Source: an uncultured Pelagibacteraceae bacterium (lineage in GTDB: Bacteria; Pseudomonadota; Alphaproteobacteria; Pelagibacterales; Pelagibacteraceae). Taken from it: DNA of 64,000 nt. Made by a program: the position numbers and the translations under genes. Below the pieces are notes generated by a model, which saw only the letters and a list, made by a program, of their open reading frames with translations, had not been told where the DNA came from and made no database searches. The first letter of the stretch is position 1. Every line of letters starts with the position of its first letter. Shown here one piece after another: positions 12,191 through 57,794 of the stretch. The stretch spans positions 1 to 64,000 of the forward strand of contig CACBKA010000004.1 of NCBI GenBank assembly GCA_902539745.1, written 5' to 3'.

Positions 12191-12489
12191 AAATTTAATT
12201 CTAGTTTGGCAGCTTCTGACATTTTAGACTTATCCCAAGGTGGATCCCACACTAAATCAAGTTTAACTTTAGAAACTCCCTTAACTTTCAATATACATTC
12301 TTCTACTTGTTTAGGCAAACTCTCCGCAACTGGACAGTTTGGTGATGTAAGTGTCATATCAACTTTCACATTTTTCTTTTCATCAATATCAATTTTATAA
12401 ATTAAGCCAAGTTCATAAATATTAACGGGTATTTCTGGATCATAAACTTTCTTAATCTCTTTAATAATTTTCTCTTTTAAATCACTCAT
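12187..12489 (-). CDS. SufT-like / MIP18 (DUF59) family protein
   Basis: YDPEIPVNIYELGLIY, TSPNCPVAESLP, VWDPPWDKSKMSE. Confidence 0.92.
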   Translation of the reverse strand: MSDLKEKIIKEIKKVYDPEIPVNIYELGLIYKIDIDEKKNVKVDMTLTSPNCPVAESLPKQVEECILKVKGVSKVKLDLVWDPPWDKSKMSEAAKLELNL

Positions 12490-12493
12490 AAAT

Positions 12494-12958
12494 TTATTTC
12501 TCTGTATTTACTACTTTTTTATTATCTTCAGCGGCATGCAAAAACGTATGCCAAGCCAAAGTAGCACATTTTACTCTCATTGGAAATTGCTTAACACCGG
12601 ATAGAGACATAATTGTTGTGTTTTCGTTGTCGCTCAAACTATTAATGCTTGGTTTATAACCCTCCTTAAGCATATTAATAAAGTTTTCTAAAATTTTTTT
12701 AGCCACGTTAAAATCTTTTCCTTTTATAATTTCAGTCATAATTGAAGCCGAAGCAATTGATATTGCACAACCTTCCCCTTCAAATGAGATATCTTCTACT
12801 TGTTTTTCGTCATTAAGTTTTAAAAAAACATGAACTTTATCTCCACAAAGAGGATTGTTTCCTTTTGCATCTTTATTAAAGCCATCACATTTTTTTTTAT
12901 TTCTTGGATTCTTGCCGTGATCCAATATAATTTCCTGATATAGTTCTTTCAAATCCAT
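12494..12958 (-). CDS. sufU: SufU/IscU-type Fe-S scaffold protein
   Basis: YQEIILDHGKNPRN, NPLCGDKV, GEGCAISIASASIM, RVKCATLAWHT. Confidence 0.93.
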   Translation of the reverse strand: MDLKELYQEIILDHGKNPRNKKKCDGFNKDAKGNNPLCGDKVHVFLKLNDEKQVEDISFEGEGCAISIASASIMTEIIKGKDFNVAKKILENFINMLKEGYKPSINSLSDNENTTIMSLSGVKQFPMRVKCATLAWHTFLHAAEDNKKVVNTEK

Positions 12959-14176
12959 TTAATTATTAAAAACTTTATTACATTTATTTATAGATTCATT
13001 TAAAATATCTATATCTTCTTTTGAATTATAAATTCCTAATGAAGCTCTAGCTGTTGCTGGTATTCCCATTTTTTCATGCAATATTTGACAACAATGATGT
13101 CCTGCTCTTATAGCAACTCCATCATCATCTAGAATTGTAGCTATGTCATGTGGGTGAATACCTTTAATTGTAAAAGATAATATTGCACCTCTATCCTTTG
13201 GATCACCAATAATTGAAACAGAATTATTTTTTTTAAGTTTTTCTAAACCATATTCTGTAATTTCTTTTTCATGTTGAGTGATATTTTTAATACCAATATT
13301 TTCTATAAACCTTATGGACTCTGCAAAACCTACGATTTCGGCTGTCTGTAAAGTACCTGCTTCAAATTTAGTGGGACTTTCAGGAAAGGAAATGTCATCT
13401 TTTTTAACTTCGTCTATCATCCCGCCTCCACCTTGATACGGAGGAAGTTCATCTAACCATTTTTTCTTAGCATAAAGAACACCAACGCCCGTTGGTCCAT
13501 ACATTTTGTGACAAGACATAACATAAAAATCACAATCCAATTTTTGCACATCTAATTTTAGATGTGGTGCCCCTTGACATCCGTCTATTAAAACTGGAAT
13601 TTTTTTGGTTTTTGCTAAATCAATGATTTTATTTAATGGCAATATAGTTCCAGTAACATTTGAAACATGTGTTACTGCTATTAATTTAGTTTTATTAGTA
13701 ATTAGTTTCTTTATTGAATCAATACTTACCTCTCCTTGTTTATCACACTCTGCAAATTTAATTACTGCTCCTTTTCTTTTTCTTAAAAAATGCCAGGGTA
13801 CATAATTTGCATGATGCTCTAATTCTGTAATTATAATTTCGTCCTTATCTTGTATAAATTTTTCTCCATAAGTTGTTGCTATCAAATTAATTCCCTCGGT
13901 CGCATTCTTGGTGAATACAATCTCTTCTCTCAATTTAGCGTTAATAAAATTTTTTATAAGGTCCCTAGTTTCCTCAAACCTATTAGTTGCTGTAACAGCA
14001 AGAGAGTGCATGCTTCTACCTACATTCGAAAATTCTTTTGAGTAGAAATTAGAAATTCTATCTATAACTACTTTTGGTTTCTGTGAAGAATTTGCACTAT
14101 CTAAATAAACTAATTTTTTACCTTTTACCTTATTTGAAAAAATAGGAAATTTTGATTTTATTTCTTTAATATCCAT
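12959..14176 (-). CDS. sufS: Cysteine desulfurase SufS
   Basis: PLP Lys in SCHKMYGPTGVGVLY; RAGHHC active-site Cys. Confidence 0.96.
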   Translation of the reverse strand: MDIKEIKSKFPIFSNKVKGKKLVYLDSANSSQKPKVVIDRISNFYSKEFSNVGRSMHSLAVTATNRFEETRDLIKNFINAKLREEIVFTKNATEGINLIATTYGEKFIQDKDEIIITELEHHANYVPWHFLRKRKGAVIKFAECDKQGEVSIDSIKKLITNKTKLIAVTHVSNVTGTILPLNKIIDLAKTKKIPVLIDGCQGAPHLKLDVQKLDCDFYVMSCHKMYGPTGVGVLYAKKKWLDELPPYQGGGGMIDEVKKDDISFPESPTKFEAGTLQTAEIVGFAESIRFIENIGIKNITQHEKEITEYGLEKLKKNNSVSIIGDPKDRGAILSFTIKGIHPHDIATILDDDGVAIRAGHHCCQILHEKMGIPATARASLGIYNSKEDIDILNESINKCNKVFNN

Positions 14177-47469: not shown

Positions 47470-48222
47470 ATGAGTGAAAACCAGAAAAAAGTTTGGATTA
47501 CAGGAGCTAGTAGCGGAATAGGCAAAGCTACTGCTGAAAAATTTGCAAAAGAAAACTGGAAAGTTGCAATTTCTGCTAGAAGAGAAGAACTTTTAAATGA
47601 AATGGCAAAAGATCAAAATATTTTTGCTTTCCCAATGGACGTAACTGACCAAAATAAAACAGAGGAAACTTTTAATAAAATTATAAAAGAATTTGGTGAT
47701 TTAGACCTTTGTATTTTTAGCTCAGGTACTTATGAGAGAAAGTCAGAAAAAGGATTGAGTGTAGATAATGTAAAAACAGTAATGGAGGTAAACTTTCTTG
47801 GAGTGGTTGGTTGTGTAAAAGCAGTTCAAGAATACTTTATTAATAAAAAAAGTGGTCATATTTCAATTGTTTCATCACCTGTTGGTTACAGAGGTTTGCC
47901 AAAATCATCTGGTTATACTGCATCAAAAGCTTCGCTGAACAATTTTACACAGGGAATATATTTTGATTTTAAAAAGTTTAATGTGAGAGTTACTTTGATT
48001 TCACCAGGATTTATCAAGACTGCTTTAACAGATAAAAACGAATTTAAGATGCCATTTTTAAAAGACACTAATTATGCTGCTGATAAGATATATGACGGTT
48101 TAATTAACAAAAAATCATTCGAAATTATATTCCCACCTCAAATAGCTTTTATTTATAAAATCTTTCAGATTCTACCAAATAAAGTTTATAATTTTTTGAT
48201 AAATAAATTTGTAAATAGATAA
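47470..48222 (+). CDS. SDR family NAD(P)-dependent oxidoreductase
   Basis: TGASSGIGKA; S...YTASKASLNNF. Confidence 0.93.
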   Translation: MSENQKKVWITGASSGIGKATAEKFAKENWKVAISARREELLNEMAKDQNIFAFPMDVTDQNKTEETFNKIIKEFGDLDLCIFSSGTYERKSEKGLSVDNVKTVMEVNFLGVVGCVKAVQEYFINKKSGHISIVSSPVGYRGLPKSSGYTASKASLNNFTQGIYFDFKKFNVRVTLISPGFIKTALTDKNEFKMPFLKDTNYAADKIYDGLINKKSFEIIFPPQIAFIYKIFQILPNKVYNFLINKFVNR

Positions 48223-48247
48223 AATATTTTTTAAGATTATATTCAAA

Positions 48248-48466
48248 ATGAAAAAATACATAATTATATTTTTAGTTTTCTATTTAAATTCTATATCTGC
48301 TTTATATGCAGAAAATAGTAAACAAGGGAAAATTGATTTTGATTGGTTTAATTCAGAGGAATATAAAATGATAAAAAAAATGCATAATTGTAAAGTTCAG
48401 TATCTCGATGGTTCTTTTGGAACATGTAATCCTTACAATTCATATAGAAACCCTAATTTAAGATGA
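48248..48466 (+). CDS. Small secreted protein, unknown
   Basis: 72 aa; signal peptide MKKYIIIFLVFYLNSISALYAE. Confidence 0.6.
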   Translation: MKKYIIIFLVFYLNSISALYAENSKQGKIDFDWFNSEEYKMIKKMHNCKVQYLDGSFGTCNPYNSYRNPNLR

Positions 48467-49002
48467 ACTCTTCAAAATTAATCACATTTTTTTTTATTTT
48501 TTTTTTAGCAGTGTCATGTACACCTAGATCGTTATCTGTTGCTCAAAAAAATGCTTGTATGGCACCAAGTGCGAATTTCAAAGCTTTGGATGCTATTCAT
48601 TCCACAAAAATTCATGCAATTTTATGGGCTAAGAAATTTGCTAAACAAGCTTCCTCAAAAGAATTGAGCTTAAGTGACAAATGTAGACAAACGCAGATTT
48701 TAATTAAAGCTTTGTACGGACTAAGAGACGGTGAAAGTGCTACCTGGGAAAATCCACAAAATAATACATCTGGTAAAATTAAAATTTTAAATACGATTGT
48801 TCAAACTGGAATATGGGGATACGGAGGGTGTAGAGATTATTTATCTTATATAAAAATTGATGATAAATTAGAAACTTTTAAATTTAGAGCATGCCCCAAA
48901 GAATTAGGTGCTTTTGAACTAGTTGATAGTGCAGGTTTTCCAATACCTGGACATTTATATTTTGCGGGTTGGTATTTTTATGATTATAGATTTTTTGAAT
49001 GA
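48463..49002 (+). CDS. Lipoprotein with 17-kDa surface-antigen-like domain
   Basis: Lipobox LAVSC; DGESATWENPQNNTSGKIKIL...GGCRDYLSYI. Confidence 0.7.
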   Translation: MNSSKLITFFFIFFLAVSCTPRSLSVAQKNACMAPSANFKALDAIHSTKIHAILWAKKFAKQASSKELSLSDKCRQTQILIKALYGLRDGESATWENPQNNTSGKIKILNTIVQTGIWGYGGCRDYLSYIKIDDKLETFKFRACPKELGAFELVDSAGFPIPGHLYFAGWYFYDYRFFE

Positions 49003-49310
49003 AAAAAATTATCCCTTTATTTATATTCTTATTTAGTTGCGTAAATACAGGCTCCTCTATAAAAGATTCTCCAAGCATAAAAAATGTTCAAAAAGATAAA
49101 TGTGAAATTATTTCTTTTTTTTCATCAAATCAGAATAAGAAAATAGTAAAGTGTAACAGTGGCTACAGTTTCCAAATGCCAAATGAAGAAATTGATAGTA
49201 AATCATGTGAAATAAAAAGATACAGAATAAATTTAGCTGGTTCTTATACAATTAAAGAAAGCTTAAAATGTAAAGATTTTGAAAATGAAAACATTATTAC
49301 TATATATTAA
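48999..49310 (+). CDS. Four-cysteine lipoprotein, copy A
   Basis: Lipobox LFSC; four further Cys with spacing matching 50286-50555. Confidence 0.68.
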   Translation: MKKIIPLFIFLFSCVNTGSSIKDSPSIKNVQKDKCEIISFFSSNQNKKIVKCNSGYSFQMPNEEIDSKSCEIKRYRINLAGSYTIKESLKCKDFENENIITIY

Positions 49311-49794
49311 AAAAATAAATATTTTAACTTTTTCAATATTATTTTTTTTATTTCCTTCTCAAACTAAAAGTGAAAGTCTAAATGTTTTTACTCAAACACC
49401 AGTTATAGTTAATCCAGAAAGTGAATATGAAGGTATGTTGATTGATCTTATACTGGATCAAATGGTATATCATTATTATAAAATTCCAAGTGATGGGGTA
49501 AAAAAACATAACTCAACTTTATTTTTATCTATTAGCGACCCTGCTCACGGAAAAATATATAGTTGGGAAAGTGGAAAATTTTATGGATTAATAAGAATGA
49601 TTTCATCCAAAAAAGAAAAAGAAAAAATTTGTAGAATATGGCAAGAGGAAATCGGCAAATTTACTACAGTTGATAATTACGGTAAAAATTCATATCAGAG
49701 AGTGACTAGTAAAATTGGTTCAAATAAAGCATGTTTTGATCTTGATGAAGGAAAGTGGGTGATGGTTGATGAAAATTATCACTTTAAAAATTAA
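49279..49794 (+). CDS. Secreted protein, diverged surface-antigen-like
   Basis: Signal peptide; HGKIYSWESGKFYGLIRMISS...KICRIWQEEI. Confidence 0.6.
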   Translation: MKMKTLLLYIKKINILTFSILFFLFPSQTKSESLNVFTQTPVIVNPESEYEGMLIDLILDQMVYHYYKIPSDGVKKHNSTLFLSISDPAHGKIYSWESGKFYGLIRMISSKKEKEKICRIWQEEIGKFTTVDNYGKNSYQRVTSKIGSNKACFDLDEGKWVMVDENYHFKN

Positions 49795-49816
49795 TTAAAT
49801 ATAAGTATAAGATGTT

Positions 49817-50293
49817 ATGAAAAAAGCTTTTGTTATTATTAGCTTATTACTTTTAACTTTCGCATGTTCTTCAACTTATAAAGTTAAACCATATAAAGAT
49901 AAAACTCCGGATTGGTATATTGTTGATAAAGATGAATGGAGAACAGTTTATGGTAAAGCTCTAGGTGAGTCAGAATCTTTAGAGATGGCCTCACGAAAAG
50001 CAGAGGCGCTTGCTGTAAGTAATATTATTTTTAAAATTAAAAGTGAACTTGACGCGACAAAAAAAGTTTATTTAGCAGATAGATACAAGAAGGTAGACGG
50101 AAAAGTATCATCCACTCAAAAAAATAATTTTGAAGAAAAAATAACTATTGCATTAGATAATTATCAAATTTCAAAATATAGGGTATCAAACAAAGAAGTT
50201 TTCAAAAAAGATGATAATTATAAAGTATTTGTTGAAGTAGCCTTTAAAAAGAAAGAGCTATTCAAGTCATTAGATAAAATCAATATTGATTAA
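49817..50293 (+). CDS. LPP20-like lipoprotein
   Basis: Lipobox TFACSS; PDWYIVDKDEWRTVYGKALGESESLEMASRKAEALAVSNI. Confidence 0.7.
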   Translation: MKKAFVIISLLLLTFACSSTYKVKPYKDKTPDWYIVDKDEWRTVYGKALGESESLEMASRKAEALAVSNIIFKIKSELDATKKVYLADRYKKVDGKVSSTQKNNFEEKITIALDNYQISKYRVSNKEVFKKDDNYKVFVEVAFKKKELFKSLDKINID

Positions 50294-50555
50294 GTTTTTT
50301 CCATTATTTATCAGTTTAATTCTTTTTTCATGTGCTAAGCAAAATATAAAATTTCATAAAGCGTGTAATTTTAAAACCATAAAAGGTAAAGAGGTTCTTG
50401 TGTGTGATGAGAGGATGTTAAGAAAAGTAAAATCAATAAATTCTAAAAATAGAGATTGTGAAAAATTTGAATATTTGACTGTAATAAATGGTGTAGAAGT
50501 AGAAAATGAGGGAATTAAATGCAAAACACCGTATGGTTACGAAGTAATAAGATAA
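50286..50555 (+). CDS. Four-cysteine lipoprotein, copy B
   Basis: Lipobox LFSC; CNFKTIKGKEVLVCDERMLRKVKSINSKNRDCEKFEYLTVINGVEVENEGIKC. Confidence 0.68.
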   Translation: MIKFFPLFISLILFSCAKQNIKFHKACNFKTIKGKEVLVCDERMLRKVKSINSKNRDCEKFEYLTVINGVEVENEGIKCKTPYGYEVIR

Positions 50556-50590
50556 TTGAATTTATTTTTTATATTTCATAAGATATTTTT

Positions 50591-50725
50591 ATGAAAAACT
50601 TAATTATTATCATAGTTTTAATTGTCCTCTTTAGTTCCGAGGTATTAATTTTTAAGAAAAAAAATTGGAACAAATTACTTGAAGAAACAGGAAAACAATA
50701 TGAGAAAATTATGGAAAAGTTTTAA
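50591..50725 (+). CDS. 44-aa membrane microprotein candidate
   Basis: Read by hand: MKNLIIIIVLIVLFSSEVLIFKKKNWNKLLEETGKQYEKIMEKF*; overlaps the next gene by 26 nt. Confidence 0.5.
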   Translation: MKNLIIIIVLIVLFSSEVLIFKKKNWNKLLEETGKQYEKIMEKF

Positions 50726-52553
50726 GGTTTTTCTCTTTTTTTTAACTTTCCCAATATATGCTTATTCTGTCGAATTGAGTGAATATGGATTGAATCTAAA
50801 TGATTTTTCTGAATTAAAAGAAATAAGAACATTATATATTTCTGAACAAGAGGGAGAAGATCGGTTTATAAATCCAGAGGAAGATTTTAATAATTCGAAA
50901 AAAATAGAAAAATATTTTTTAAATAGTAATTTTCTATCCAATGAAACAGATACAATTTATCAATTTTGTTGTAATTCTAAAAGTGAAATGCAAAAAATAA
51001 TTGTTGGTAAAATTGATAATGCAAGTGAAAAATTTCAATCCCTTAATTCCAAAGATGTCATTAATTTAGACAATGAAATAAAAGTAAGCAATTTTTTATA
51101 TTTTCAAAACAAAAAATTAATAAAATCAATTTTTATAAAAGATGATAAATATAATTATTTACAAGTAAAACCAGAAAAACAAAGCTATACTTTGTATTTG
51201 AATTCTCCATTGAAATTCAAAGATACAATTACATCTTTGGATGCGGTCAAATGGAGTGATTTTTCAATAACAGATTTTGATTTAGAGGTATCATTTTCTC
51301 CTAATTTTAAGTCAATTCAAAATTTAGCAGACGGTATTTTAGTTTTAAAAGCACCAAAATTAGATATTTTTCTTGTTGTAGATGATAGAAATAATAAAAT
51401 TATTTATACGGACGAAAATCTAAAAAAAATCAAATACCACGGAGACTATGATCCTAATGCTGATCTTACAAACCCATCAAGTTATTTGAATCCAACATTA
51501 TTAAATTTTTTACCGACTGGTTTAAAAAAAATATTAGACAAAGGAAGAGAGTTAAACTCAAATTATCCTCTTAATTATACTTTTGAGGATCTAATGGAAT
51601 TAGTAAATAATTCTGAAAAACTTAATATAAACACTATAAATTTTGCTAAACAAAAAGAAAGTGAATTAGAAAGTGTAATCCAAAAAAAACAAGCTGAACT
51701 CAAAGCAGAGGAAGATAAGGCAAATGCAGAAAAGCTTAAAGCCGCTCAATTAGAGGAACAAAGAGCTGCGGAAGAACGTCAAAAAATTTTAGATCAACAG
51801 GCTGAAGAAGAAAATCAAAGAATGTTAGCAGAAGCTAAAGCTGCAGATGCTGAAGAAAAAAGACAAAAATATATTCAATATGGTCTTGTAATTGTTTTAA
51901 TTGGTGGATTAATTGCTTTCATATTTTTTACTAATTTCTTAGATAATTTACAAAAATTTTTAAAGCAAATATTTAGTAAATTTAAAAAGAAGAAAGTGAA
52001 AAGTTACTTACCTAAGGATTATGGAAAAAAGAAAAAAAAGAATAAAAAAATATTAGGCAATTGGCTTGCAGATTGGGCAAATAGTTATGAAGATCCTAGA
52101 AGCGCGTATTATATCGTATTAGCAACATGTATTGTTTCAGTATTTTTATTTTTTTCTTTGGTTGGTCAAATTAATAAAAATCCTGATTCAACAGGATGGA
52201 TGGTGTTTGGTTGGATCCTGATAATCACAGGGATAATTTCAGGTTATTTAACCGCTAAAATTTATTCTGGTATCTCAACATATCATTGCCCTAAATGTAA
52301 ACGAATTTATGCAGGGGAGATTTATAAACAAATTCATCTTGGATCAAGACAACAAGCAGCAAAATTTAGAGTGACGGAAAAAAGACGGATAAAATATAGA
52401 GACCACCAAGGCTTTACTAAGTATAATGATTACGAAGTAGAAAAAGATGAAAGGGGTATAGAACAAATTGATACTTATTTAAATAAAACCAAGTGTTTGC
52501 TTTGTAACCACAAGTGGGAATACAACTCTTCATCTGCAACTCGGGTGGCTTAG
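50700..52553 (+). CDS. Composite envelope protein: signal peptide, ectodomain, coiled coil, TMs, C-terminal zinc ribbon
   Basis: Start set to ATG 50700 (MRKLWKSFKVFLFFLTFPIYAYS); KAEEDKANAEKLKAAQLEEQRAAEERQ coiled coil; CPKC...CLLC. Confidence 0.75.
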   Translation: MRKLWKSFKVFLFFLTFPIYAYSVELSEYGLNLNDFSELKEIRTLYISEQEGEDRFINPEEDFNNSKKIEKYFLNSNFLSNETDTIYQFCCNSKSEMQKIIVGKIDNASEKFQSLNSKDVINLDNEIKVSNFLYFQNKKLIKSIFIKDDKYNYLQVKPEKQSYTLYLNSPLKFKDTITSLDAVKWSDFSITDFDLEVSFSPNFKSIQNLADGILVLKAPKLDIFLVVDDRNNKIIYTDENLKKIKYHGDYDPNADLTNPSSYLNPTLLNFLPTGLKKILDKGRELNSNYPLNYTFEDLMELVNNSEKLNINTINFAKQKESELESVIQKKQAELKAEEDKANAEKLKAAQLEEQRAAEERQKILDQQAEEENQRMLAEAKAADAEEKRQKYIQYGLVIVLIGGLIAFIFFTNFLDNLQKFLKQIFSKFKKKKVKSYLPKDYGKKKKKNKKILGNWLADWANSYEDPRSAYYIVLATCIVSVFLFFSLVGQINKNPDSTGWMVFGWILIITGIISGYLTAKIYSGISTYHCPKCKRIYAGEIYKQIHLGSRQQAAKFRVTEKRRIKYRDHQGFTKYNDYEVEKDERGIEQIDTYLNKTKCLLCNHKWEYNSSSATRVA

Positions 52554-52560
52554 ATAATTT

Positions 52561-53664
52561 ATGGATAAAAAAAAACTTATTAAAAATGTATTAGTATGGA
52601 ACAATAAATCTTTTCTTAATAAGCAAATTAAAGAAAAAGATATTAAAATTAGAACCATTAAAGCTCCAGTTTATATCGATCAAGGATTTGACATTAGTTT
52701 TGAAGCTGATATTTACGAAAGAGACTTAGCTGCTGAAGCACAAGCAAAAAATTTAGCTAAGTTTCATCAAAAAAAAGCAGATAAACTTCAAAAAAAAGCT
52801 GATCTTTACAAAGACTTAGCATATGAACCACCAGGAAGTTTTGGTAAATATGTTGCTAGAAAGAGAGAAATTGCCCAAACCTATGGATCTACCAGCAAAG
52901 AGTTTTTAAACGTTTTAAATGAAAGAAAATCGTTGCAATTTCTTAATAAACAAATGTCATCTAGAAGTTCATTTACCTCACTTCAAGCTAAATTAGCACG
53001 AACTAAAGCCAATAGTTTAAAAAACCAAACATTTTTAATTTTAAAAAAGAAGGTAAAAGAAAAAATCAAAATAAATAACCCTACAGATAAATTGAACAAA
53101 AAAAGATCTTTAACGCATGTAGAAGAAAATGAAAAATTGATTGGTAAAGATGAAGGAATTTTGTTCGAACAAACTATAACTAATAATATTGAAAAAAAAA
53201 ATATACAATTAAAAGATTTAATTAATAATAAAAATAAGGAAATTGGAAAAATTCATAAATTAAAAGATTTTACAAAAAAATCGTCTTTAAATTTTGGAGG
53301 GGTAAGTTTAGAAGAAGCCTATCAATTAGGATATGAAACTCTTATTTCTCATGAAATAAATGAGTATATGCAAAAGTATTTTAAAAATTTTTATGGTCGA
53401 TACGAAATAACTAAGATTAATATTAAATGTAAAATTGAAAAAAAATATTTTAATATTTATGAAGCTAGATGGGGATCGCCTGTTCCTATATTTAATTGGA
53501 TGGGTGGCGTTTCATATTGGATTAAAGATGAATATTTAGCAGGAAAAGCTCACAAGTCACCTTTCAAACTAGGAATTAATATAGGTTTAAGTTTGTTTAC
53601 CTTTGGATGGTGGATACCAGTTCTAATAATTCTCTATATATTGCATAGAAGGAAATTTAAATAA
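52561..53664 (+). CDS. Lys-rich protein with C-terminal membrane anchor, unknown
   Basis: 367 aa; C-terminal GINIGLSLFTFGWWIPVLIILYIL TM; no family recognised. Confidence 0.7.
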   Translation: MDKKKLIKNVLVWNNKSFLNKQIKEKDIKIRTIKAPVYIDQGFDISFEADIYERDLAAEAQAKNLAKFHQKKADKLQKKADLYKDLAYEPPGSFGKYVARKREIAQTYGSTSKEFLNVLNERKSLQFLNKQMSSRSSFTSLQAKLARTKANSLKNQTFLILKKKVKEKIKINNPTDKLNKKRSLTHVEENEKLIGKDEGILFEQTITNNIEKKNIQLKDLINNKNKEIGKIHKLKDFTKKSSLNFGGVSLEEAYQLGYETLISHEINEYMQKYFKNFYGRYEITKINIKCKIEKKYFNIYEARWGSPVPIFNWMGGVSYWIKDEYLAGKAHKSPFKLGINIGLSLFTFGWWIPVLIILYILHRRKFK

Positions 53665-53714
53665 ATTTACTTATTAAACTTATTCAATTAAAAAAAGTTA
53701 TATAATAATTTTTT

Positions 53715-55877
53715 ATGTTTAAATATTTAAAATATAAATTTGATCAAGCTCTAGAAAAGAGTTTCTTGAATTTGGCCATTTTTCTTTTTGGAATAAGTTT
53801 ATTGGGAATAGTTTTATTTTCTTTAATTTTTTATTTCCTATTCTTAATTGGTGTTATTTCAATAGATGGTGTTTTTGGCAAATTCATTTGGATGACATTT
53901 GCTTATTTTATTGATGTAGGCACAATCTCTGGTGAAGCTTACTCAGACAATACTACTGCAGATAAGGTATTTAAAATTTTAATCACTATTTTTGGTATTA
54001 TAGTATTTTCAAGCTTCATTGGTATTATTAGCCAAGCACTTTCTAACAGAATAGAGGAACTTAGAGAAGGTAAAGGTTATATATCTGAAAAAGATCATAC
54101 CATAATCTTTAATTTCTCTAAAAAAACTATTCCTTTGTTGAACGAACTCTTTAAATCTTATGAGGGAGAAAAAAAAACCATCGTTATATGTTCCGAGCAT
54201 GAAATAAAAGATATTTCTGTTAAAATTGAGTCAGCAACCAATATACCTAAAAATATTAATCTTATTTATAGAAAAGGCTATGGATGGCAAAAAAAAATTC
54301 CTGCCTTACTTGATTTTGAGGGCGCCTCAAATTTTATCATTCTAAAGCCAGACCAAAACGACGAATATCAATCAGAAAATGACTGCGATAATGAGGTAGG
54401 CAAAACCTTAACATCTTTGATAACATCAAAAGATTATCAAAATACAGGGGGGAATATAGTTGCTGAATTTTCTTCTAAACAAAAACAAGTACTTTATGAG
54501 GTATTTAACCTTGAAAATATAAATAGTGTTATTGAAAAAACGAAAAATAAAAAAAATCACCCACTTTTTGTTGAGTCTGAAGATATTAGAGCTAAAATTA
54601 TTTCACAAGCAGTTTTTAATCCTGACATAGTTGAAATTTATGATGAGCTTTTTAGTTTTGAGGGATCTGAAATTTATTTTTTTAATACCAAAGATTTAAA
54701 TTCAAAAATGAAATCTAAATTAAAAAAAATTAACAACAAGACTATTTTTGAAATTAACTCAATTTTTGACCACATAATTTGTTTAGGTTCATATAACATA
54801 AAAGATCACGATAGTATCAAAGATCGAAAAGATTTTGTTTTGTTTGACCCCGAAGTTTTATGGGTTGATTTAATTCCTGACGGTCAAATAAATTTTAATG
54901 AAATAGATGGTTTAATTTTTATAGCTAATAATAAGCAAAAAATTTTTGATGAAATTGAGCACTGCGATGAAAAAAAAGATGATATAAAATTAATTGAACC
55001 GAAATTAGATGAATTTGGTCATAAAATTAGAATTGCTTTGTTTGTAGAAGATGTTTCTGAAAATAGAATTAAAAAAATTCTTCATAACATAAAAGAGACA
55101 AATAAACTTAAAAATGTTGAATTCATAAGAGTTTTTCTTGATGAGAGTAACACTATAACGTCTGAGAATTTTACTGAAACAAATAATTATCTAAGATCAG
55201 ATAATATTGAACTAGAGTTATATTCAATTGATTACAATAATTGGAGTCATGAACAGCTTTATCCATACACAGGTTTAAGTGAGATGTTAAATGAATTTAA
55301 TTGTTATATTTTTGCTTATGACGATATTGCTGATGAAGATGATAACATCAATAATGTTAAAGATAACAAAGTCATTGACAACTATGTATTATTCTCAAAT
55401 TTTGATATTAGTAACGAGGGTTTTAAGAAAACTCCAAGGTCATTTATTACAGAAGTTGGCGCTTTTAAATCTAAAGATATTTTAGAAAGATACAAAAGAA
55501 ATTCATTTTCACCTTATTTTGGTGTTGATATAATTGATATAAATACTTTAATTAGTAAAATTATTTCATCAAGTAGTTTAGATAAGAATAATAAAAAATT
55601 AATAGATTTATTTTTAGATTTATCTTTTAATATTAAAACATACACAGTTAATGAGGATAAAATAGAAACAAGCTTTTGTGAATTAGAAAAATACTTTGCT
55701 ACCGAAAAACAAATATTGTTAGGTTTAATAGATTATGATTTTAAAGATGTACAAAAATCTTTTAAAAGCTTATGTTCTATGCCTAGAAGAAAAATTAGTG
55801 ATATTATTATAAATCCAGATCAAAGAAAAAAGCTTATATTAAATAAAGGTGATAGAATAATAACTTTGTCTAATTAA
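53715..55877 (+). CDS. CASTOR/POLLUX/DMI1-like ion channel
   Basis: N-terminal TM/pore region, then IIVFSSFIGIISQALSNRIEELREGKGYISEKDHTIIFNF, like the CASTOR/POLLUX RCK entry; 720 aa. Confidence 0.8.
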   Translation: MFKYLKYKFDQALEKSFLNLAIFLFGISLLGIVLFSLIFYFLFLIGVISIDGVFGKFIWMTFAYFIDVGTISGEAYSDNTTADKVFKILITIFGIIVFSSFIGIISQALSNRIEELREGKGYISEKDHTIIFNFSKKTIPLLNELFKSYEGEKKTIVICSEHEIKDISVKIESATNIPKNINLIYRKGYGWQKKIPALLDFEGASNFIILKPDQNDEYQSENDCDNEVGKTLTSLITSKDYQNTGGNIVAEFSSKQKQVLYEVFNLENINSVIEKTKNKKNHPLFVESEDIRAKIISQAVFNPDIVEIYDELFSFEGSEIYFFNTKDLNSKMKSKLKKINNKTIFEINSIFDHIICLGSYNIKDHDSIKDRKDFVLFDPEVLWVDLIPDGQINFNEIDGLIFIANNKQKIFDEIEHCDEKKDDIKLIEPKLDEFGHKIRIALFVEDVSENRIKKILHNIKETNKLKNVEFIRVFLDESNTITSENFTETNNYLRSDNIELELYSIDYNNWSHEQLYPYTGLSEMLNEFNCYIFAYDDIADEDDNINNVKDNKVIDNYVLFSNFDISNEGFKKTPRSFITEVGAFKSKDILERYKRNSFSPYFGVDIIDINTLISKIISSSSLDKNNKKLIDLFLDLSFNIKTYTVNEDKIETSFCELEKYFATEKQILLGLIDYDFKDVQKSFKSLCSMPRRKISDIIINPDQRKKLILNKGDRIITLSN

Positions 55878-55925
55878 AATAAGTATTAAGTCCTAATATA
55901 GATTAAAGTAGAGATTATTTATTTC

Positions 55926-56144
55926 TTAAATTTTTTTTTTGAAAACGAGATTAACTCTACCAACACCTGTTGGAGACGATATTAATTCCCAACCCTGATG
56001 ACCCATAATATTTAAACTTTTAGTATTGGAACCTAGCGTCTTATCTGCTTTGATTTGTTTAATTTTAGCAGTTTCTTTTATTTTAAATGCATGCAACATA
56101 AGCCTTTCCCAACCTTCAAAAACAGCATATTCAAATTTACTCAT
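55926..56144 (-). CDS. DUF4177-like small protein
   Basis: MSKFEYAVFEGWE...LNIMGHQGWELISSPTGVGRVNLVFKK. Confidence 0.7.
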   Translation of the reverse strand: MSKFEYAVFEGWERLMLHAFKIKETAKIKQIKADKTLGSNTKSLNIMGHQGWELISSPTGVGRVNLVFKKKI

Positions 56145-56156
56145 AATTAGATTATA

Positions 56157-56882
56157 TTACTTCTTACTTAAAATAGAACTAAAACTTCCAGCTATTATTC
56201 CTGTTGGAATCGCAACAATCCCAATTCCGCTAATTGAGATAACAACAGTCGCAATTTTTCCAAGAATAGTTATTGGATATACATCGCCATATCCAATTGT
56301 AGTTAAAGTAATAGTTGCCCACCAAAAAGCTCTTAGAATGCTTCCAAATGCATCTGGTTGATTTTTTCCCTCAACTAAATAAAGAACTATTGCTGATAAA
56401 AAAATAATAAAAATCGTAATTCCCAAACTAAAAATTATTTCTTTCTTTTTTAGATCCAAAACATGAAAAACGTTTCTTATAAATTCTATTCTATTTATAA
56501 AATTAGCTAATTTTAGAAGTCTTATTAATCTAAAAATTCTCAGCAAGAATAATTCATTATATTCAGGGAAGATGAAAAAAGGCACAAAAGCAACTAAATC
56601 AATTACTGAGTAAAAAGAAAAAAAATATTTTATTTTTCCCTCTAGACCCTTGTATTCTTTTCGGTAATGGATTGTTAAAAACTTAATTAAATATTCTGTA
56701 GCAAAAAAAATTGCAAAAAAATAATTAAGATAAAAAAATCCCTCTGAGAATTTTATATATATAGTTTTCTCAGTTTCAAGAACAACTGAAATCACAGATA
56801 ACAAAATAATTAAAAAGATAAATTTTTGTGGGTTATTAAACTTATTATTTGTTTGATGTAATTTTTTTAAAAAATCATTCAT
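56157..56882 (-). CDS. Voltage-gated-type (Kv-like) K+ channel
   Basis: S1-S6 topology, S4-like LLRIFRLIRLLKLANFINRIEF, filter TLTTIGYGDVYP. Confidence 0.92.
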   Translation of the reverse strand: MNDFLKKLHQTNNKFNNPQKFIFLIILLSVISVVLETEKTIYIKFSEGFFYLNYFFAIFFATEYLIKFLTIHYRKEYKGLEGKIKYFFSFYSVIDLVAFVPFFIFPEYNELFLLRIFRLIRLLKLANFINRIEFIRNVFHVLDLKKKEIIFSLGITIFIIFLSAIVLYLVEGKNQPDAFGSILRAFWWATITLTTIGYGDVYPITILGKIATVVISISGIGIVAIPTGIIAGSFSSILSKK

Positions 56883-56950
56883 AATTGAGATTAATTTTTG
56901 TCGATTGTAATTTTAAATTAGGTTTTTAACAATCCATTACCAAAAAGAAT

Positions 56951-57016
56951 GTAAAGAGCTTCTTGCCTAAAGATTATAGAAAAATAGACCCAAATAAAAA
57001 ACAATTTGTAATATAA
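56951..57016 (+). pseudogene. Possible gene remnant related to a segment of 50700-52553
   Basis: VKSFLPKDYRKIDPNKKQFVI* with no start; compare VKSYLPKDYGKKKKK at about 51996-52037. Confidence 0.35.
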
Positions 57017-57051
57017 CTCTTCTACTTCAACTAAAGTAGCTTAATAATTAT

Positions 57052-57198
57052 TTATCTTTTTTCAACTGGAGCACTCAGTACATTCGCTTGACCATATTGT
57101 GCTCTAGCCATATTTAATGCAGCATGTGAGTCTGGTGCCTGGATTTCAATATCCATTATTCTGCCGCCAGCTCTAACTCTTATTTTAAAAGTTTTCAT
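57052..57198 (-). CDS. 48-aa conserved-looking small protein
   Basis: Read by hand: MKTFKIRVRAGGRIMDIEIQAPDSHAALNMARAQYGQANVLSAPVEKR*. Confidence 0.65.
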   Translation of the reverse strand: MKTFKIRVRAGGRIMDIEIQAPDSHAALNMARAQYGQANVLSAPVEKR

Positions 57199-57269
57199 AA
57201 AATAATGTTAGCTCAAAATCAAAAATATTTAAAGTTAAATTTCAAAGAATAAAATCTAACAGCACTAGA

Positions 57270-57794
57270 TTATTTTTTAACAAATACCACAGTCAAATCG
57301 GCTACTCTAAAACCAAACTTTGTCATTTTAGCTCTGTTGATTGCAATGGTATCACTTTGTTTAAATATCCAATCATCAAATGTGATTTTAATTTCTTTTC
57401 CCTTTACAGGGACAAGTAAAACATACTCTAATTTGAAAGCTGATCCATAAGAAAAACCTTTGGCTGTTCCAACAACATCTGCAGCTGTACCCTCGTAATT
57501 ATGTTCATCTTTTTTTGTAATTTTCCATTGTCTAGTTTGAACTTCGCCATCTGACCAATTAAATTTTTCGTCAAGAATTAATTGTTTACCATCCCACTTT
57601 CCATCTAGGTCTGCTGAAAATTGTCTTGTAACTTTACCACCTCTATTTTGAAGCACACCATACGCTTTGACATTTCCATTTAAAAATTCTTCAATAATTA
57701 ATCTTGGTTTTTGATCTTTAAAGTCTTCTGGTTTCATTCCTGCTACACAATTCGTTAAAAATAATGTTAAAAATAAAGTTAAAATATATCTCAT
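57270..57794 (-). CDS. DUF3833 family lipoprotein
   Basis: Lipobox LTNC; KPEDFKDQKPRLIIEEFLNGNVKAYGVLQNRGGKVTRQF. Confidence 0.88.
   Translation of the reverse strand: MRYILTLFLTLFLTNCVAGMKPEDFKDQKPRLIIEEFLNGNVKAYGVLQNRGGKVTRQFSADLDGKWDGKQLILDEKFNWSDGEVQTRQWKITKKDEHNYEGTAADVVGTAKGFSYGSAFKLEYVLLVPVKGKEIKITFDDWIFKQSDTIAINRAKMTKFGFRVADLTVVFVKK

Follow-up and report, generated by a model that had tools for sequence, protein, structure and literature searches.

A mosaic genomic island in a SAR11 genome that brings together a lipoprotein cassette and a CASTOR/POLLUX-type channel

We analyzed a window of 64,000 nt from an uncultured Pelagibacteraceae bacterium (contig CACBKA010000004.1, assembly GCA_902539745.1; this genome is called G000 here, other genomes carry G numbers, and retrieved loci carry L numbers). 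The window holds a genomic island of about 9,000 bases, in which a cassette of eight genes, g1–g8 (module A), is followed by the gene g9 and by a unit (module B) comprising a CASTOR/POLLUX-type channel (g10), a small gene (g11), and a voltage-gated K+ (Kv) channel-like gene (g12). The island is a mosaic and not one inherited ten-gene system, because modules A and B differ in distribution and g9 is an orphan. In the reading that we favor, with even confidence, the lipoprotein cassette and the channel pair of this composite island are functionally associated, and the cassette alters the interaction with phages at the cell envelope. As far as can be judged from sequence, the island hints at a real envelope function that is possibly virus-related.

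The extent of the island was determined by comparison with empty sites. In a search of 31 congeners with both flanking genes, 20 loci were retrieved, 18 of which were empty; in these, the two convergent flanking genes lie tail-to-tail with about 8 nt between their stop codons. As the alignment of these 18 congeners runs through both flanks with nothing but this short spacer in between, the inserted DNA can be placed between 48223 and about 57266. Such a clean empty site in close relatives identifies an additive genomic island, and the presence of the island in 3 of the 31 congeners bears out the variability that a preliminary description of this locus had suggested. That description had delimited the locus as 48248–55877; the genes within this interval stand, but the inserted DNA extends further and adds g11, g12, a remnant of g8, and g13 (Table 1). 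An assembly chimera was rejected, as both flanks match the congeners and G145 shares the remnant of g8 that follows module B in G000. No integrase or recombinase was found among the island open reading frames (ORFs) and no tRNA at the junction, so the island does not qualify as an integrative mobile element. The only direct repeat at the junctions was an A/T-rich match of about 10 nt (seen by eye), which is not significant in DNA of 29% GC, and promoter and terminator signals at the locus did not exceed those of shuffled sequences.

Two other genomes, G061 and G145, carry g1–g8 at the same site and nothing of g9–g12. Module A thus occupies this site in 3 of the 31 congeners, and module B in G000 only. 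The single co-directional envelope assembly ending in a channel that had been proposed is not supported in that form by this comparison, nor by the finding that close channel orthologs in L103–L105 lie behind unrelated genes. Inheritance of g9 and g10 as one pair was likewise rejected, since other sequence precedes these orthologs; a search for g9 homologs found none, either in 195 other genomes of the family or in those that contain L103–L106. Nucleotide alignment delimits module B: similarity starts at about 53689 with L103 and at about 53686 with L105, approximately 28 nt before the channel start, and ends at about 56902. A decayed duplicate of the 3′ part of g8 lies beyond module B, and in G145 such a remnant sits directly behind g8. 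Hence, the simplest reading is that module B was inserted between g8 and the remnant, or else module B was lost from G145. Most simply, module B landed later in the distal end of module A, where it is spaced as if co-transcribed, and successive insertions at the junction of two convergent genes best explain the composite island. That G145 has the remnant too points to former tandem copies of g8 and to recombination of this gene.

As described earlier, g1–g10 are co-directional ORFs that overlap or abut. The gaps inside g1–g10 reach 50 nt at most, and five neighboring pairs within g1–g8 overlap (by 4, 4, 32, 8, and 26 nt), an operon-like spacing. By inspection, g2, g3, g5, and g6 carry lipoboxes, g1, g4, and g8 carry signal peptides, and g7, g9, and g10 contain membrane segments, in line with the earlier count of at least six exported products, with others membrane-anchored. 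Searches of g1–g10 against Pfam and NCBIfam gave no family above its cut-off, and no enzyme model of Pfam, NCBIfam, or PADLOC was matched, in agreement with the initial impression that no recognized enzyme is present.

Module A is under purifying selection. All of g1–g8, including g7, are intact in G061 and G145, and omega lies between 0.03 and 0.34 in most comparisons (two comparisons with very few changes reach 0.4–0.5). These ORFs are thus not chance occurrences, and g7 is very likely a real gene despite its 44 amino acids. The weak matches of g2 to PF16998 (14.2 bits; gathering threshold, 26.6) and of g5 to PF02169 (16.1 bits; gathering threshold, 25.9) are paralleled by similarly weak matches of homologs, namely 18.6 bits for the 17-kDa-B protein of L088 and 18.1 bits for the g5 homolog of L158. 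Relatives of g5 were found with a profile (A3) in 12 of 196 family genomes. Matches of g1 to Shiga-toxin B in NCBIfam (E ~0.01; 16 bits versus cut-offs of at least 165) were dismissed as signal-peptide coincidences. The large protein g8 combines an exported N-terminal domain, a coiled coil, transmembrane (TM) segments, and C-terminal zinc-ribbon-like Cys pairs. It diverges between strains, being 62–91% identical to its sister copies; compared with the G061 protein (62%), the middle is near-identical and the exported and C-terminal parts have diverged. The order sample, of which G061 and G145 are not part, yielded no g8 homolog in its 297 other genomes, and the g8 structure model was unusable (predicted local distance difference test [pLDDT] 39). 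Module A is probably an operon of exported lipoproteins, a one-TM microprotein, and a large strain-variable membrane protein.

The CASTOR/POLLUX family is known mainly from plant symbiosis signaling, and the earlier assignment of g10 to it was confirmed in several ways. The protein matches PF06241 (Castor_Poll_mid; E 1.7e-4, below the curated cut-off), and a profile of 12 channel sequences retrieved only plant CASTOR and DMI1 from the PDB below E 0.01 (E 1.1e-7). A Foldseek search with the g10 model gave the gating rings of LjCASTOR as best match (E 2e-18), followed by BK channels; the RCK gating ring of g10 is homologous to that of CASTOR. As in CASTOR/POLLUX pores, TVGYG is absent and an Asp-x-Gly filter is present, the DVGT of g10 being aligned with DAGT or DSGT of relatives from Shinella, Rhizobium, and sphingomonads (DVGTISG versus DAGTMGG). 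The filter of LjCASTOR is AD265SGNHA, and that channel is Ca2+-selective (PMC6697748). Given this selectivity and the pore alignment, it is a reasonable guess that g10 is permeable to divalent cations.

The channel occurs in 6 of 396 family genomes, and two types can be distinguished. The type II orthologs in L103–L105 are 78–92% identical to g10, and each lies tail-to-tail with a Kv-type channel, so that this arrangement is found in all four type II loci. This pairing, kept at different genomic sites, would fit a locus for ion homeostasis in which the RCK and Kv channels regulate K+ or divalent cations under osmotic or energy stress and module A is an unrelated neighbor. We consider such a role quite improbable in view of the very patchy presence of the channel and the loss of the pore motif in type I channels. 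The latter (L106–L114, L088, and L089) are 33–42% identical to g10, lack the pore motif, and contain an extra insert; with the D-x-G motif gone, they may be nonconducting sensors. Among them (L088:7975–10536, L109, L111, and others), some lack the Asp altogether, and the insert is PDZ-like in appearance.

The comparison of synteny proposed earlier gave a divided answer: the exact ten-gene string is not linked elsewhere, but the two modules recur together in two further SAR11 lineages. Counted by lineage, lipoprotein-cassette homologs co-occur with the channel three times, in two cases within about 10 kb. Ahead of every type I channel but that of L106 lie h_98 and a gene for a Cas4-like PD-(D/E)XK nuclease, with h_160 nearby. 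Divergent from nuclease and channel runs a cassette encoding a 95-residue protein, an LPP20-like, a 4-Cys, and two 17-kDa-like proteins, and usually a prepilin-like protein; its genes are distant homologs of g5, g6, g2, and g4. In AG-917-E05, one contig carries, in order, a partial Kv gene, h_160, h_98, a g13-like ORF (by eye), a radical SAM gene, and homologs of g6, g5, g7, g2, g3, and g4. The g2–g7 homologs lie about 4–7 kb beyond Kv, h_160, and h_98 and include relatives of g2 (38% identity), g3 (34%), g5 (45%), and g7, which is next to g2. Channel contig L104 breaks off within the other half of a Kv gene and seems to run on into this contig, a join that we infer. In AG-916-E19, another contig holds both a type I cassette and g2–g3–g4-like genes, the g2-like gene being split into two ORFs. 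In the 196-genome sample, a strong LPP20-like gene is present in 3/3 channel genomes versus 3/193 others (Fisher 1.6e-5), and in the 396-genome sample in 6/6 channel genomes (G268 counted through record G499). Because the association recurs in SAR11, cassette and channel probably act together on the envelope.

Several observations weigh against this reading. Neither module needs the other, as G061 and G145 keep module A without a channel and L106 has a channel without the cassette. As the type I loci belong to a single related lineage, the number of independent events is small and the Fisher test makes the association look stronger than it is; in addition, SAR11 islands concentrate flexible genes, which makes co-location possible without common function. 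In the LPP20 tree, g5 groups with the AG-917-E05 and G060 sequences and the type I copies form a second group; g5 is about as close to the gene of the channel-less G060 as to the type I copies, or closer. Moreover, the LPP20 and 17-kDa assignments fall below Pfam cut-offs, the g10 model has a mean pLDDT of 53 (low confidence), neither viral contigs nor phage records yielded the channel, and PADLOC and PHROGs gave no match for any island protein.

The separability of the modules makes a neutral or weakly useful flexible pool a serious rival, in which cassette and channel are separate cargo of permissive islands with no common function. The orphan status of g9 and the presence of GIY-YIG, DUF4116-like, radical SAM, and other cargo in the islands point the same way. 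We nevertheless hold it to be possible rather than likely, since two rare genes co-occur in three lineages, g2–g3–g4 and g5–g6 are conserved suborders accompanied by the micro-ORF g7, and g1–g8 are under purifying selection.

The link of the cassette to phages comes from viral and mobile DNA. LPP20-like relatives occur on 14 marine IMG/VR viral contigs, several of which carry T4-like genes (NrdB-like, UvsX-like, and helicase-like, by inspection), and gp76 of the Methylophilales phage Melnitz is LPP20-like. On viral contig L153, the LPP20, 4-Cys, and 17-kDa genes keep the same order. In G149 (L130:9180–12377), an LPP20-like trio, a serine recombinase gene, and (by eye) an integrase-like gene are neighbors at tRNA-Leu and together form a small integrative element of this SAR11 genome. 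On these grounds, the cassette is mobile and phage-linked. A prophage origin of the whole island was rejected: the island lacks an integrase, viral contigs yielded neither the channel nor g8, g9, or h_160, and phage records likewise lack the channel.

Under the favored reading of functional association, the lipoproteins would most likely form a coat over, or a bridge across, the outer membrane and periplasm, and this layer could change the phage–cell interaction, leading to exclusion or resistance. A ligand-gated, divalent-permeable channel together with a K+ channel might turn an intracellular signal into a change in membrane potential. A more specific version, which we regard as unlikely, is a dedicated, undescribed anti-phage system in which the phage-linked cassette (LPP20-like, 4-Cys, 17-kDa-like, and g7) is coupled to the RCK-gated channel and Kv and blocks or aborts infection; none of the ten proteins fits a PADLOC defense model, and no core gene of a known anti-phage system was found by PADLOC. 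Alternatively, an LPP20/FlgP-like ring and 17-kDa-like lipoproteins (with a type IV prepilin-like subunit in type I) could build a surface fibre or pore as an appendage or secretion assembly, the channels being incidental. The prepilin N-methylation motif in the type I cassette, the weak LPP20 match, and the curli secretion genes carried by pelagiphages (PMC7029224, PMC9599517) count for this, whereas g1–g10 include no pilin, secretin, ATPase, or CsgG-like gene; with no CsgG or CsgF match, curli type VIII secretion is not indicated, and an appendage appears very unlikely.

Neither flexible islands nor channels of this family are new in kind. SAR11 genomes contain additive and replacement flexible islands, including an O-chain cluster (PMC11898729); the present island resembles these in being strain-variable at a fixed site and differs in gene content. 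Compared with the CASTOR/POLLUX/DMI1 family (Lotus CASTOR, PDB 6o6j, 6o7a, and 6o7c), g10 shares the succession of pore and RCK gating ring, the D-x-G filter without TVGYG, and the profile and fold matches, but it is bacterial, has two predicted N-terminal TM helices rather than four, and has longer spacer regions; the insert and missing filter motif set the type I relatives further apart. Rhizobial and sphingomonad channels (L115–L124) are 24–26% identical to g10 over the N-terminal part, with pore and first RCK domain aligned, but have other neighbors (e.g., ABC transporter genes), and no lipoprotein cassette was seen in L115, L116, and L118. Viral contigs L140 and L153 and phage Melnitz share the LPP20-like lipoprotein (L153 with all three genes in order), but no channel, g7, or g8 was found there. 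In the open-access papers searched, we found neither the recurring cassette–channel combination nor a report of the cassette in SAR11. A recurrent cassette in SAR11 islands and viral contigs, paired with a rare ligand-gated channel, offers concrete genes for envelope-level phage interaction, carried by named single-cell genomes (AG-917-E05, AG-916-E19, AG-426-D09, and others). With it, the CASTOR/POLLUX family gains members in streamlined ocean bacteria, among them type I, a natural variant that is devoid of the pore motif.

Table 1. Coordinates of the island, its genes, and its neighbors in the window
Feature	Position	Strand	Remarks
SDR gene, left flank	47470–48222	+	island neighbor
Whole inserted island	48223–57266 (end approximate)		between SDR gene and DUF3833-like lipoprotein gene
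g1, 72 aa, signal peptide	48248–48466	+	conserved in G061, G145
g2, 179 aa lipoprotein, 17-kDa-antigen-like	48463–49002	+	PF16998 weak, E 0.04, below cut-off
g3, 103 aa lipoprotein	48999–49310	+	omega 0.06–0.07 versus G061
g4, 171 aa, exported, related to g2 and 17-kDa-like proteins	49279–49794	+	homologs in L088, L089, L158
g5, 158 aa, LPP20-like lipoprotein	49817–50293	+	PF02169 weak, E 0.015
g6, 89 aa lipoprotein, conserved cysteines	50286–50555	+	overlaps g5 as in type I loci
g7, 44 aa, single-TM micro-ORF	50591–50725	+	84–100% in G061, G145; 59% in AG-917-E05
g8	50700–52553	+	617 aa from ATG; 624 aa from TTG
g9, 367 aa orphan, C-terminal TM	52561–53664	+	membrane segment
Module B conserved unit (channel, g11, Kv-type channel)	53686–56902		nucleotide alignment to L103, L105
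g10, CASTOR/POLLUX-type RCK channel, 720 aa	53715–55877	+	profile, fold, pore alignment
g11, 72 aa, DUF4177-like	55926–56144	-	below cut-off; 62% in L103
g12, 241 aa, voltage-gated K+ channel-like, TTIGYGD filter	56157–56882	-	PF00520, E 3.5e-28
Decayed duplicate of g8 3′ part	56937–57050	+	73–76% blocks to g8
g13, 48 aa small protein	57052–57198	-	69–76% to small proteins downstream of type I channels
DUF3833-like lipoprotein gene, right flank	57270–57794	-	island neighbor

Some further observations concern the neighbors of cassette and channel homologs. In a single case (L106:7625–12562), a channel homolog has defense genes as neighbors, namely DndA/SspA and SspD/DndC-like ones; a long gene there may, by eye, encode a DNA phosphorothioation-associated methyltransferase, and MoxR/VWA-like genes follow at a greater distance. 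By eye, h_160 resembles phage CII-type regulators, and it has no Pfam or PHROGs match. An h_160-like gene lies beside LPP20-like and small secreted genes in L129 (7855–9311), L131 (7203–8735), and L126 (7957–9222); these come from three further genomes, none of which yielded the channel. DUF4116-type repeat proteins (by eye) recur in islands (L126:5755–6834; L089:3932–5269 and 12473–13291). In L158 (1239–3119), a g13-like ORF of 55 amino acids lies directly upstream of a radical SAM/SPASM gene, a possible peptide-modification pair.

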